Shown here in pieces: positions 26,941-31,239 of a stretch of DNA of 64,000 nt (position 1 is its first letter; each line of letters starts with the position of its first letter). The stretch comes from Candidatus Fibrimonadaceae bacterium (GTDB lineage: Bacteria > Fibrobacterota > Fibrobacteria > Fibrobacterales > Fibrobacteraceae). The notes beneath the pieces are model-generated. The model had not been told where the DNA came from, ran no database searches, and worked only from the letters and a program-made list of their open reading frames with translations. The DNA lies in assembly GCA_031281265.1 (NCBI GenBank), contig JAITFO010000025.1, forward strand, positions 1 through 64,000, given 5' to 3'. The position numbers and the translations under genes are program-made.

Positions 26941-27726
26941 TCAGCAGAACGCTTGGGAATGCTGAGAGAACAGAGATAGCATCTCCAACGCTTCTCTTGT
27001 TTCCAAAACGTCGTGCACACGCAGAACTTTGACGCCTTTTTGAACGGCTACCATACCGGAGATTATGCTAGGAATTAAGCGGTTGCTGTTCTCTAAGCCT
27101 TTGATTTTTGCTATATAGCTTTTTCTGCTCACACCGAGCAACACAGGAAATTTTGTTTGGCAAAGCTCATCTATATTTGCTATCAACGCGAGATTTTCTT
27201 CCTGCGTTTTGCCAAAGCCTATGCCGGGATCTATGAATATATTTTTTATTTTTCCCTCAAGCAATGCAGCTCGTTTCAGCAGATAATTTTTTACCTCTTT
27301 AACCGAAGATGTTCCGCCCGCGTATTTCAAAACGTGCTGCAAAACGGCATCTGCTTTTGTGTCCGTTATGGTTTTGAGCATTTCGGGGTCGTGTTCCATC
27401 GCGGAAATATCATTTATTATATTTGCCCCAGCTTTCACCGCTCTTAATGCGACATTCGCTTTTGTTGTGTCTATGGATATTTGGAAATTTTTTCTGCTCT
27501 GCTCCTTTGCAAGCATCTCTATAACGGGAATGACTCTGGAAAGCTCTTCTTCTTCCGAAATAGGTTCATAGCCCGGTCTTGTGCTTTCACCGCCGATGTC
27601 TAAAATATCCGCACCGTCATTCAGCAATTTTAACCCGTGTTCAAAAGCATTTTTTGGCTCGCAATGCCTGCCCCCGTCAAAAAAACTATCCGGCGTGCAA
27701 TTTATTATACCCATTATTTTATGCAT
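26941..27726 (-). CDS. folP: dihydropteroate synthase
   Basis: Joins p-aminobenzoate to the pterin diphosphate in folate synthesis. It shows GIINCTPDSFFDGGR, the DIGGESTRPGYEPIS loop, ISIDTTKANVA and the ending region GVKVLRVHDV. The 261-aa length fits. The start codon overlaps queC by 8 nt; Met at 27714 is an alternative. Both pathways use GTP-derived pterins or deazapurines, which may explain the pairing. Confidence 0.95.
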   Translation of the reverse strand: MHKIMGIINCTPDSFFDGGRHCEPKNAFEHGLKLLNDGADILDIGGESTRPGYEPISEEEELSRVIPVIEMLAKEQSRKNFQISIDTTKANVALRAVKAGANIINDISAMEHDPEMLKTITDTKADAVLQHVLKYAGGTSSVKEVKNYLLKRAALLEGKIKNIFIDPGIGFGKTQEENLALIANIDELCQTKFPVLLGVSRKSYIAKIKGLENSNRLIPSIISGMVAVQKGVKVLRVHDVLETREALEMLSLFSQHSQAFC

Positions 27727-28504
27727 AATCGCTTCTATCGCTGAGTATGTTCATCGTTTCCTTTACCAACAAGTCGCTGTAGTTATCTTCTTTGGGCAGT
27801 GCATAGCCAAGCTCTTTATGTGCACGGACAATCATAGGGTCGGGAAGACCTGCAAGCCTAAAACCTTCTTCACGTAGCAACGTGGAATGGTCTTTTGTTG
27901 TAGGCGGGAATTTACCGCTATATGCCGTGTGGCTGTAGCTCAAGGCATCCCAGCATTGGCTACCGAGATCCCACGCTTTACGGACTATCTCCTTTTTGGA
28001 AAGTTTCGCAATCGGCGCATCTATGAAAAATTCGTTTCCGTAAGCGGCACTCAAAGCCTCCTCAGCCTTCTTTATGAACTCCAAACTGCAATCCGGATAG
28101 TTCGCAGTATCGCTGCCACATACCCCTGTGACTATAAAGTCTATGCCTCTAGACAAAGCATAGTTCGCTGCCAAGCTAAGGAAAACCATATTACGCACAG
28201 GGACGTAGGTGTTCTCCACACTATCCCCTACCTCTTCAACCATCGTTTGGTAATCCTTGTAGGTGTGCAAATCCCCCCCATCAAGCAGAGTTCCCCCCCT
28301 TAGCACCTCAGGGAAGTTTATAACCTCGTGAGGAACGCCCGCAATCTTTGCGATTATCCTTGCCGCCTCGCACTCAACCTTATGACGCTGCCCGTAATTA
28401 TACGTGACCGCAATAAGGTCATGCCCAGCCGCTTTCTCCATAAAAAGGCAAGTTGTTGAATCCTGCCCACCACTGAATACCACTACCTTTTTGGTTTTCT
28501 TCAT
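27719..28504 (-). CDS. queC: QueC-like 7-cyano-7-deazaguanine synthase, Cys-less variant
   Basis: ATP-dependent enzyme that makes preQ0 from carboxy-deazaguanine on the way to queuosine. The PP-loop FSGGQDSTTC is intact, as are YGQRHKVE and TGVCGSDTANYPDC. However, the C-terminal zinc knuckle that normally holds four Cys is here SHTAYSGKFPPTTKDHSTLL: the four Cys positions read Ala, Thr, Asp, Thr. One Cys remains just upstream (SQCW). The rest of the protein is well conserved, so this is probably a variant subfamily rather than a dead gene. No queD, queE or queF is nearby. The start codon is nearly leaderless. Confidence 0.85.
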   Translation of the reverse strand: MKKTKKVVVFSGGQDSTTCLFMEKAAGHDLIAVTYNYGQRHKVECEAARIIAKIAGVPHEVINFPEVLRGGTLLDGGDLHTYKDYQTMVEEVGDSVENTYVPVRNMVFLSLAANYALSRGIDFIVTGVCGSDTANYPDCSLEFIKKAEEALSAAYGNEFFIDAPIAKLSKKEIVRKAWDLGSQCWDALSYSHTAYSGKFPPTTKDHSTLLREEGFRLAGLPDPMIVRAHKELGYALPKEDNYSDLLVKETMNILSDRSDYA

Positions 28505-28514
28505 ATTACTATTA

Positions 28515-28520
28515 AATATA
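28515..28520 (-). promoter_or_regulatory. TATATT -10-like box of queC
   Basis: TATATT on the minus strand lies 10 nt before the queC ATG, predicting a 5' leader of about 3-4 nt. It is divergent from the element of the next gene 30 bp away. Confidence 0.5.
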
Positions 28521-28550
28521 GAACATGCAAAATGCCGTTTTTGTTTTTAC

Positions 28551-28556
28551 TATATT
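28551..28556 (+). promoter_or_regulatory. TATATT -10-like box of the HNH gene (leaderless)
   Basis: TTTTTACTATATT is followed by exactly 6 nt and then the ATG at 28563, which places the predicted transcription start on the A of ATG. No ribosome site exists. Confidence 0.6.
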
Positions 28557-28562
28557 TTAGTT

Positions 28563-29150
28563 ATGGTTAAAGAAAAAATTAAAGTCAGTAACAATAAAAA
28601 AGTTAAACTTAGCAACCATATTTTCGTTTATATCAGCAAGGATATAAAAGTGCATGGAGTAATGCTCAAAAAGTATAGCGTTGGAATTATTGAAAGTAAA
28701 GATAAAAAAGAAAGCAAAGTTAGTTTCATCTGGTTCAAAGAACCAATTACAGTTCCCAATAGCAGTTATAAAATTTTTGACCCTCAAAAAACAGGCGATT
28801 TGTATTTAAAAAAAGTCTGCAATATATGTCATAGATTGCTGAGCACTAAAACTTTTTCTGAGGGAATTTCGTGTGAAGATTGTAAAAAAATAATAGACGG
28901 AATTAATGCGAGCTCAAAAAAGAAAAAAGCAAAAAAGAAAAATAAAACGGAATTGGATTTTCTCAACTGCCCTGTTTGCTATAAACCAACAATGTCAAAA
29001 TCTACAAGTAAAATAGTCTTAGACCATAGCCATAAAGATCTGCATATTCGTGGCTGGGCTTGCGATAGCTGCAACACTGGCATTGGCAAGTTCAAAGATG
29101 ATATATTATTGTTTGAAGATGCCATAAAATTTTTGAAAACAGATTGTTAA
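28563..29150 (+). CDS. HNH nuclease of the endonuclease VII type
   Basis: A 195-aa protein. The C-terminal 55 residues match the phage T4 endonuclease VII-like HNH fold: zinc Cys pair CPVC, catalytic DHSHKDLHIRGWACDSCN and GKFKDDILLFEDAIKFL. A second zinc pair upstream (CNICHRLL...CEDC) and a Lys-rich linker precede it. This family is usually phage- or mobile-element-borne. Here it stands alone beside queC without other phage genes. The start was moved from the ORF-track 28404 to 28563 because upstream codons overlap the divergent queC gene. It could resolve DNA junctions or act as a defence nuclease; this is not decidable here. Confidence 0.8.
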   Translation: MVKEKIKVSNNKKVKLSNHIFVYISKDIKVHGVMLKKYSVGIIESKDKKESKVSFIWFKEPITVPNSSYKIFDPQKTGDLYLKKVCNICHRLLSTKTFSEGISCEDCKKIIDGINASSKKKKAKKKNKTELDFLNCPVCYKPTMSKSTSKIVLDHSHKDLHIRGWACDSCNTGIGKFKDDILLFEDAIKFLKTDC

Positions 29151-29171: not shown

Positions 29172-30002
29172 CTATAGTAGTTTTCCCGTAGCAATATCAT
29201 AAGCAGCTTCGTAACGGGCTAAAGCTTCGTGTCTGCGTGATACCTCTTCTGGTTGAAGACCTTGGATGAATTTTCCGTCTCTATATATCATTACCGAATT
29301 GCCGGTTATCCCCCATTTGTTGCTCTTTTGTTCTATGCTGGGGTCAGAAAATTCCACTTGTTGCACTACACCATTTTGAACAACCGCAGCATACGTATCA
29401 CTTTCAATTATTGTAGTCAGAATGTCTAGTATTTCATCATTGCTCATATCTACGGCAACACGGTTAAATTCTCCTTTATTTTTGAGAGCTTCAAGAAAAT
29501 AATCTATCAATTCTGTTTTTTTCTTTTTATCGTCTTCATCTGTTTTATCTTCTCTCTGCGAATTCACTTGTTGATATGAGCCATAAGAGTTATAATCTGT
29601 TCCATATATTGCATTTACTATTCCGTTTATCTCTGGAACAGATTTGCTTAATATGCCCGCTCTATCTGGCGAAACAGATGATACATATTCGTACATTAAC
29701 TCTTTATATTTTTTGTCTTCAAATCTATTTACGGATTCCCCAGCTTTTGCGTGTTCTTTTGCTAATTCCTCTAACGCCCTTAGAATTTCCTCATCGCTCC
29801 TTGTAGGTTCGGTTTTTGTGTTCATCCATTCAGGCAATTTAATGCTGCCATCTCTGAATGGGTCATTATCGATAATTGGCGTGTTTTCTTTTTTGGCTAC
29901 ATCTCCGCCCCAAATAGGAATTGTAAAAGGTATGCTTGAAGTCTGCGATACGTACTGAGCTCCATAGCCGCTGATTACGGCACCATATCCGCCTATTTCC
30001 AT
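29172..30002 (-). CDS. orphan protein A of a sigma-54 paralogue pair
   Basis: A 276-aa soluble protein without a signal peptide. The N-terminus is Gly/Tyr-rich (GGYGAVISGYGAQY). A helical core (about residues 85-130) holds RSDEEILRALEELAKEHAKA and YVSSVSPDRAGI. After a charged linker, a C-terminal domain ends with VSRRHEALARYEAAYD. The neighbouring gene at 30083-30763 has the same layout: SDEEL, SVSPDR.GI and RRHE. I recall similar SVSPDR-type proteins in Clostridia but cannot name a family. Ribosome site gaggtttttATG and the promoter are shared in design with the paralogue. Confidence 0.7.
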   Translation of the reverse strand: MEIGGYGAVISGYGAQYVSQTSSIPFTIPIWGGDVAKKENTPIIDNDPFRDGSIKLPEWMNTKTEPTRSDEEILRALEELAKEHAKAGESVNRFEDKKYKELMYEYVSSVSPDRAGILSKSVPEINGIVNAIYGTDYNSYGSYQQVNSQREDKTDEDDKKKKTELIDYFLEALKNKGEFNRVAVDMSNDEILDILTTIIESDTYAAVVQNGVVQQVEFSDPSIEQKSNKWGITGNSVMIYRDGKFIQGLQPEEVSRRHEALARYEAAYDIATGKLL

Positions 30003-30035
30003 AAAAACCTCGGTTTAAGTCTTTAAAATTGTACT

Positions 30036-30051
30036 TGCAAAAATAGTGCCA
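30036..30051 (-). promoter_or_regulatory. sigma-54-type promoter of orphan A
   Basis: On the minus strand TGGCACTATTTTTGCA matches the -24/-12 consensus TGGCAC-N5-TTGCA, with GG and GC exactly 12 nt apart. The start would fall about 23 nt before the ATG at 30002. Confidence 0.72.
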
Positions 30052-30082
30052 AAAAAAGTCTAAAACACTAGATATGGGCTTT

Positions 30083-30763
30083 TCAAGCATAAGCATCTAT
30101 AGTAGTTCCGCCTTCAAGGTGTTTTGGACCATTTTTGGCGCCGCTCCACGCTTCGTTGTATATTGAACATATTTCATGCCGCCGTGCACTTTCTTCTTTT
30201 GTTTGGAAATGAGCCCAACCGTTTTGGCTATACTCAGCTATTATGTCTCCATTGCTGTCGTAAAATGCTACATAACTCAATTTATCGCCGTCAAAACTCG
30301 CAAAATAATCATCACTTTTCATATTGACAACTGCATTTTCATCATCTTTCTTTTTTTTATCTCCTTTTTTTTCTGCTTCCAAAAGTATTTCTAGCAATGT
30401 TTTTATTTTTTCATTTTTAAATTTAGCTGTATTTTTGTTATCGAATATTTTTTTTGTTGAATTAGTTATAATACCCTCTCTATCTGGCGAAACTGATGAT
30501 ATGTATTCTTTTTTTAAATCTAAAAACGCTTTTGTAGTTTGAAATTCTCCTTTTGCCGCATCTTCTTTTGCTGTTTTTACAATAGCTTCTTTTAATTCTT
30601 CGTCACTCATTGAAGATTCTGTTTTTGTGTACGCTCCGTTTATCTCGGCCTTTTTAAAATTAGGTAATTTAATGTTCCCTACTTTTGCTCCTGTACCAAA
30701 CCTTTCCTTATTAGCTTGTATGTAATTAAACGCAGCACTATTGACACTGCTAACACCGCTCAT
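30083..30763 (-). CDS. orphan protein B of a sigma-54 paralogue pair
   Basis: A 226-aa paralogue of the preceding entry. Shared landmarks in order: IKLP near residue 32, MSDEELKEAIVKTAKEDAAKGE, YISSVSPDREGI, a Lys/Asp-rich linker and a C-terminal domain with SARRHEICSIYNEAW. The N-terminus differs and there is no signal peptide. It has its own promoter and ribosome site (gcgaggttttttATG), so the two are separately transcribed copies under common control. The function is unknown; sigma-54 control fits motility, surface or nitrogen-related roles. Confidence 0.7.
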   Translation of the reverse strand: MSGVSSVNSAAFNYIQANKERFGTGAKVGNIKLPNFKKAEINGAYTKTESSMSDEELKEAIVKTAKEDAAKGEFQTTKAFLDLKKEYISSVSPDREGIITNSTKKIFDNKNTAKFKNEKIKTLLEILLEAEKKGDKKKKDDENAVVNMKSDDYFASFDGDKLSYVAFYDSNGDIIAEYSQNGWAHFQTKEESARRHEICSIYNEAWSGAKNGPKHLEGGTTIDAYA

Positions 30764-30799
30764 AAAAAACCTCGCTCTTTAATGTTTTAAAATTATACG

Positions 30800-30816
30800 T
30801 GCAAAAATTATGCCTT
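30800..30816 (-). promoter_or_regulatory. sigma-54-type promoter of orphan B
   Basis: On the minus strand AAGGCATAATTTTTGCA keeps the invariant GG and GC at 12-nt spacing. The surrounding 60 bp also resemble the promoter of orphan A, including the AATTTTAAA stretch after the -12 box. Confidence 0.68.
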
Positions 30817-30885
30817 AAAAAAGCCTATTTTGTTTTATTTTTTTCGGTAAAAAAAGGCTAAAGTTTTTACAATAATATGCCGATA

Positions 30886-31239
30886 TTAAATAGAAATATC
30901 AAAGATCTGTTTCAAACTATAATCCACTTGTGAAATGAGATGTTTTGGAAGCATAGAAACAAAACCCATCAAGTATGTTTTGTCTAAGGTTATAATTTGA
31001 GAAATATTTATTACAGAAGATTTTTCGAGTTTAGAAATATTTTTTTCTAATAAAATATTAAATGGAGCATTTGCCAAATGTAAATTAGATGTTATTACTG
31101 CACAGATAACAGTATTTATTTCACTTTTATTAAAAATATCATTTTGAACTATTAAAACCGGTCGTCTTTTAGCTGGCTCGGAGCCTCTAGGACTAGGTAA
31201 GTTAGCCCACCAAATTTCACCTTTTATCAAGTTTACCAA
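30886..31239 (-). CDS. MazF/PemK-type toxin
   Basis: A 117-aa protein of the MazF endoribonuclease toxin family. The typical start KGEIWWANLPSPRGSEPAKRRPVLIVQND carries the conserved Arg and RPVLI motif, ICAVITSN follows, and INISQIITLDKTYL matches the C-terminal half. It overlaps the antitoxin gene by 7 nt, as expected for a type II operon. The cell would be inhibited by mRNA cleavage when the antitoxin is degraded. Confidence 0.9.
   Translation of the reverse strand: MVNLIKGEIWWANLPSPRGSEPAKRRPVLIVQNDIFNKSEINTVICAVITSNLHLANAPFNILLEKNISKLEKSSVINISQIITLDKTYLMGFVSMLPKHLISQVDYSLKQIFDISI

Follow-up and report, generated by a model that had tools for sequence, protein, structure and literature searches.

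Genes A and B, two genes on the reverse strand of a 64,000-nucleotide stretch of DNA from a Candidatus Fibrimonadaceae bacterium of the termite-gut type (the window), belong to what sequence comparison indicates is an undescribed, fast-evolving and lineage-specific protein family, here called the SPDR family, which is very probably co-regulated with the flagellum, judging by the promoters of its members. Our favoured reading, to which we give a probability of roughly 0.4, is that A and B are non-structural accessories of the flagellar regulon that would leave the cell through the flagellar type III system and act outside it, in the gut.

Gene A (29172-30002; open reading frame and profile match) encodes 276 amino acids and gene B (30083-30763; open reading frame, BLASTP and tree) encodes 226; both are type I members of the family, B falling in a sub-branch with the copies G010_I1 and G011c167. 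The sequence-only reading had described them as two paralogous orphans, and at these coordinates they are indeed real, diverged paralogs, lacking a match in Pfam, NCBIfam, PHROGs or the PDB. In a BLASTP comparison of this pair only, they share 44% identity across 82 amino acids (E = 9e-14). The closest relative of A, found in another species (L039:2971-3894), is 81% identical to it, versus only about 37% between A and B, and the split of the two paralogs is, on such comparisons, ancient. Since dN is 0.10 and dS 0.46 between A and this relative (dN/dS of about 0.23), A is under purifying selection. Among the motifs proposed as common to both proteins, SDEE and S-x-x-SPDR hold family-wide, whereas RRHE is limited to A, B and the closest relative of A, with E253 and R256 alone of that stretch invariant in the family alignment. 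The SSVSPDR block spans residues 108-114 of A (29661-29681, reverse strand), of which S108, P112, D113 and R114 are invariant in 24 members, and residues 89-95 of B (30479-30499, reverse strand; BLASTP and family alignment). In A numbering, the invariant positions of the family further include M1, K63, E72 and L102. An SVSPDR motif also occurs in a member-like protein of genome G007 (L134:2735-3232), which we assigned by eye to another sigma-28-controlled group and rejected as a member.

With a profile built from A and B, relatives turned up in 13 of the 101 near genomes searched. A 24-member profile, run against 168 genomes of the phylum Fibrobacterota, found about 30 copies, spread over 13 of them; the wider contig scan used the narrow profile only. 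Of the 13 carriers, 11 belong to the window's genus, which has 12 genomes in this set, and two to a distant genus, a marginal further match in G153 (E = 0.009) being set aside. In the tree, type I, with A, B and their kin, stands apart from a second branch that divides, with moderate support, into types II and III. The earlier notion of a pair of orphans is correct as to the kinship of A and B, but the pair is part of a family with three branches, and one of these relies on sigma-28 in place of sigma-54. Searches of Pfam, NCBIfam, PHROGs and PDB sequences returned no known-family match for the family, only scattered chance matches. A phage or plasmid origin was considered and rejected, as no relatives were found in viral contigs or plasmids. 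Copy number ranges from 0 to 6 per genome, with tandem runs and with fragments or degenerate copies, and in most copies the frame is open and full-length. The family genes lie distant from flagellar clusters.

The promoters of A and B are predicted to be sigma-54-dependent, a prediction supported by several observations. Testing for TGGCAC-N5-TTGCA upstream of the start, with a GG/GC core 12 nt apart, places the element of A at 30036-30051 on the reverse strand (TGGCACTATTTTTGCA), where TGGCAC-TATTT-TTGCA agrees with the consensus at 11 of 11 bases, 33 nt before the ATG. The element of B, at 30800-30815 on the same strand (AGGCATAATTTTTGCA), reads AGGCAT-AATTT-TTGCA, with two mismatches (9 of 11 consensus bases), lies 36 nt before the ATG and was aligned with eight other type I promoters. 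In both, the GG-GC spacing is 12 nt from first base to first base, as the sequence-only reading had noted. Its observation of very similar 60-bp upstream regions also stands, with 49 identities and a score of 27, where 500 shuffles gave at most 10. The likeness ends past the -24 box, so the conserved stretch consists of the promoter and a leader with a ribosome-binding stretch: the type I upstream alignment delimits the leader at 30003-30035 for A, ending in CGAGGTTTTT, and at 30764-30799 for B, ending in GCGAGGTTTTTT, both on the reverse strand. The element of B is not significant on its own, as 24 two-mismatch matches are seen in the 64 kb and 24 are expected; its significance comes from where it lies and from being conserved across the type I lead genes without exception, compared with two of 152 control upstream regions. 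The suggestion that the two promoters have been maintained independently is supported, given that A and B have long been separated, yet promoter and leader are the same in every type I lead gene.

The window is contig C10 of a 2.29 Mb genome in 120 contigs, 77.6% complete (G000). The promoter claim had been staked on the presence of rpoN, and the genome holds one rpoN gene, together with three strong matches to the sigma-54 activator domain; promoters of the same form are frequent, the exact pattern TGGCAYN5TTGCW occurring 32 times versus 3 in the reversed control. Most exact sites with a gene behind them lie upstream of rod, hook, cap or flagellin genes, preceding flagellin and FlgE-, FlgF/G-, FlgH-, FlgJ- and FlgL-like genes by Pfam and FliD, FlgB/C and FlgK genes as assigned from sequence. 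Several gene names in this analysis are assignments by eye. The distribution of these sites makes sigma-54 chiefly a flagellar sigma factor here, which supports the proposed tie to flagellar functions. At eight rod, hook or related loci (L051, L053, L058, L059, L060, L062, L063 and L066), the start codon lies 11-14 nt after the -12 box and has no Shine-Dalgarno sequence, which implies leaderless messages. Across the 12 genomes of the genus, a sigma-54 box 10-12 nt before an ATG occurs 102 times, versus 3 for the reversed pattern.

The second flagellar sigma factor, FliA (fliA), is encoded on the same contig as FlhA, and a FlgM gene is itself downstream of a sigma-28 site. A broad sigma-28 pattern shows no enrichment, with 23 matches versus 21 in the control, while the extended form TAAAGTTTT-N-TGCCGATA occurs 12 times in the genome versus 0 in the reversed control. 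Matches to the broad pattern that read TAAAG-AAAGGCTATAC...GCCGATATTGAAAAACA in contigs C53, C58, C100, C101 and C111 of the genome look like repeated coding sequence rather than promoters, being the near-identical ends of several open reading frames. At fliD (L049 / L106, G000:C22:55659-55715), a sigma-54 site is followed closely by a sigma-28 site.

Promoter classes cluster on the family tree. All nine type I lead genes carry a sigma-54 site scoring 9/11 or better, 33-36 nt upstream of the ATG. Within type I, such a site is missing from a truncated copy in G011, from the genes in second and third place of a G006 run, and from G010_I1; this last gene groups loosely with B, has a sigma-28 site and appears to have switched sigma factor. 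In type II, the sigma-54 site of all eight lead genes lies closer to the ATG, at 11-12 nt, and the ninth gene follows a member in a run; type II mRNAs are predicted to be leaderless, with a spacing like that of the rod and hook genes of the genus. Of the six type III genes, five carry a sigma-28 site (TAAA-N15-GCCGATA) that scores 10/11 or more at 20-40 nt, and the sixth a weaker one of 8/11. Among 152 control upstream regions, only two attain a sigma-54 score of 9, and a sigma-28 score of 10 is never attained.

A further, perfect sigma-28 (FliA)-type site, at 30859-30885 on the forward strand, faces away from the promoter of B in a back-to-back arrangement, and no gene follows it; it is one of the 12 extended sites of the genome, where none would be expected in the window. 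Abutting it is the stop codon of a MazF/PemK-like toxin gene (30886-31239, reverse strand; PF02452, E = 5e-28). In genome G006 (contig C84), a divergent back-to-back sigma-28 site drives a type III member. On the simplest reading, the window would once have held a type III gene at this position and would have lost it with the arrival of the mazF module; the rest of the 77.6% complete genome yielded no type III gene. Toxin genes (mazF, yoeB, brnT, parE, yafQ, PIN) lie beside or near many family copies, and type II toxin loci of the MazF, YoeB, BrnT, ParE, PIN and YafQ kinds were recorded near members at L137, L124, L125, L134, L138 and L130. Separately, queC lies beside an Endonuclease VII-like gene both in the window (27719-29150) and in G006:C76 (L127:2823-4847), and family members of different subfamilies adjoin these genes in the two places. 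The toxin neighbourhood, the degenerate copies and the orphan sigma-28 promoter are what one would see if the family were passive cargo of variable islands rich in toxin-antitoxin genes, with promoters that are relics of an ancestral flagellar gene and no present role. We regard this as very unlikely, in view of the purifying selection on A, promoter spacing that stays within 3 nt across diverged paralogs, and the full-length open frames of most copies.

The distribution of the family follows that of flagella. Flagellar genes have been described in Fibromonadaceae and as lost in Fibrobacteraceae by Abdul Rahman et al. (PMC4704652), and the distribution of FlhA among the phylum genomes agrees with that account. 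The family occurs in 13 of 62 FlhA-positive and 0 of 106 FlhA-negative Fibrobacterota genomes, a link that is confounded by ancestry, since it rests on two genera. Most flagellated relatives also lack the family, and within the genus G005, 92% complete and flagellated, has no copy, so the proteins are dispensable for building the flagellum. This absence from a near-complete flagellated species also weighs against a structural role, in which the proteins would be built into the organelle as minor components (cap, junction, filament or sheath decoration). Promoter classes and timing like those of hook and filament genes would suit such components, as would the type I N-termini, which are rich in S, T, N and Q like the axial proteins of the genome; those of types II and III are charged, unlike axial proteins. 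However, none of the 24 members has a flagellin or rod/hook Pfam domain, and neither homology nor a fold match links them to flagellin or rod proteins, so that we consider a structural part distinctly improbable.

AlphaFold models were built for A and for the type III protein of L039 from six sequences each; they are of moderate quality (pTM 0.59 and 0.58) and agree in outline. Both predict a disordered N-terminus (the first 45 residues in A, about 70 in the type III protein), a helical core with SDEE and SPDR, a short beta sheet and a C-terminal helix. No fold match in the PDB fell below E = 0.1, the best having E = 0.17, and matches to the flagellin fold were weak (E > 0.5). The family proteins show no stretch resembling a signal peptide or membrane segment and have few cysteines. 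Small, soluble proteins with a mostly helical core, staged by sigma-54 and sigma-28 and with N-termini that are charged in types II and III, could serve as cytoplasmic assembly helpers (export chaperones, a hook-stage checkpoint or anti-sigma-like regulators) that never leave the cell. Their being optional, copy-variable, fast-diverging and partly degenerate would be unusual for assembly factors, and the disordered N-termini are long, which makes this role unlikely, though the least so of the three alternatives considered.

Returning to exported accessories, we propose that sigma-54 and a flagellar activator would switch on A and B at the rod/hook stage, that the type II relatives would be produced at that stage too, from messages predicted to be leaderless, and that the type III relatives would follow later, driven by FliA (sigma-28). 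The proteins would be soluble and would function outside the cell, as surface accessories or as cargo leaving through the flagellar type III apparatus. In favour of export are the absence of signal peptide-like and membrane stretches, the few cysteines, the axial-like composition of type I N-termini and the predicted disorder at the start of A; the charged N-termini of types II and III, the distance of the genes from flagellar clusters and the want of a fold match with any known exported protein speak against this reading. Export by this route, which we put forward because of the analogy with the fed genes of Campylobacter jejuni and with non-flagellar proteins exported by flagellar type III systems, falls somewhat short of an even chance. 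We would place lower still, as a rather doubtful extension, the view that a single expanding family has been split over the flagellar assembly clock, its branches having been taken into the leadered sigma-54, leaderless sigma-54 and sigma-28 promoter classes, to give successive related sets of accessories exported via the growing flagellum.

The family adds an undescribed group of proteins tied to the flagellum in mostly uncultured bacteria, and its SPDR core together with the promoter class offers a sequence marker for finding more members. If export is true, the family would constitute a flagellum-secreted repertoire in which paralogs are allotted to successive assembly stages; we know of no flagellum-secreted repertoire in this phylum. 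Other orphans of the same genome share these promoters and belong to different families: a YjfB-like protein (PF14070, below cut-off), a SprA-related protein (PF12118) and the L046/L047 proteins, none with an assigned motility function. The last two (L046:322-1467 and L047:251-1468, on G000:C22) are tandem paralogs beginning MQ[VI]ANNYYGY, with sigma-54 sites at 32-33 nt as in type I and no Pfam match. More sigma-28-controlled orphans were noted at L101, L103, L114, L115, L116 and L122, of which L103 and L122 are paralogs; the sigma-28 orphans include the SprA-related protein and a weak DUF5610 match.

Among known systems, the hierarchy resembles that of polar flagellates such as Campylobacter and Vibrio, with rod and hook genes under sigma-54, later genes under sigma-28 and FlgM present, but differs in that flagellin and fliD also have sigma-54 sites (fliD having both) and that many rod and hook genes start 11-14 nt past the -12 box. 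The closest likeness for the family itself is to the Fed (flagellar coexpressed determinants) and Cia proteins of C. jejuni, which are lineage-specific, have flagellar promoters and are not motility proteins (PMC7064773, PMC5223770, PMC2764114). The fed genes are sigma-28-dependent and dispensable for motility, and matter in colonization (PMC7064773), and non-flagellar proteins that use the flagellar type III system as their exit, the Cia type among them, do so by an N-terminal signal (PMC2764114); for the SPDR family, export is our hypothesis. By its promoters and distribution, the SPDR family shares with these proteins control by flagellar promoters without a core structural role. Whereas the Feds depend on sigma-28, the SPDR family is split between sigma-54 and sigma-28.
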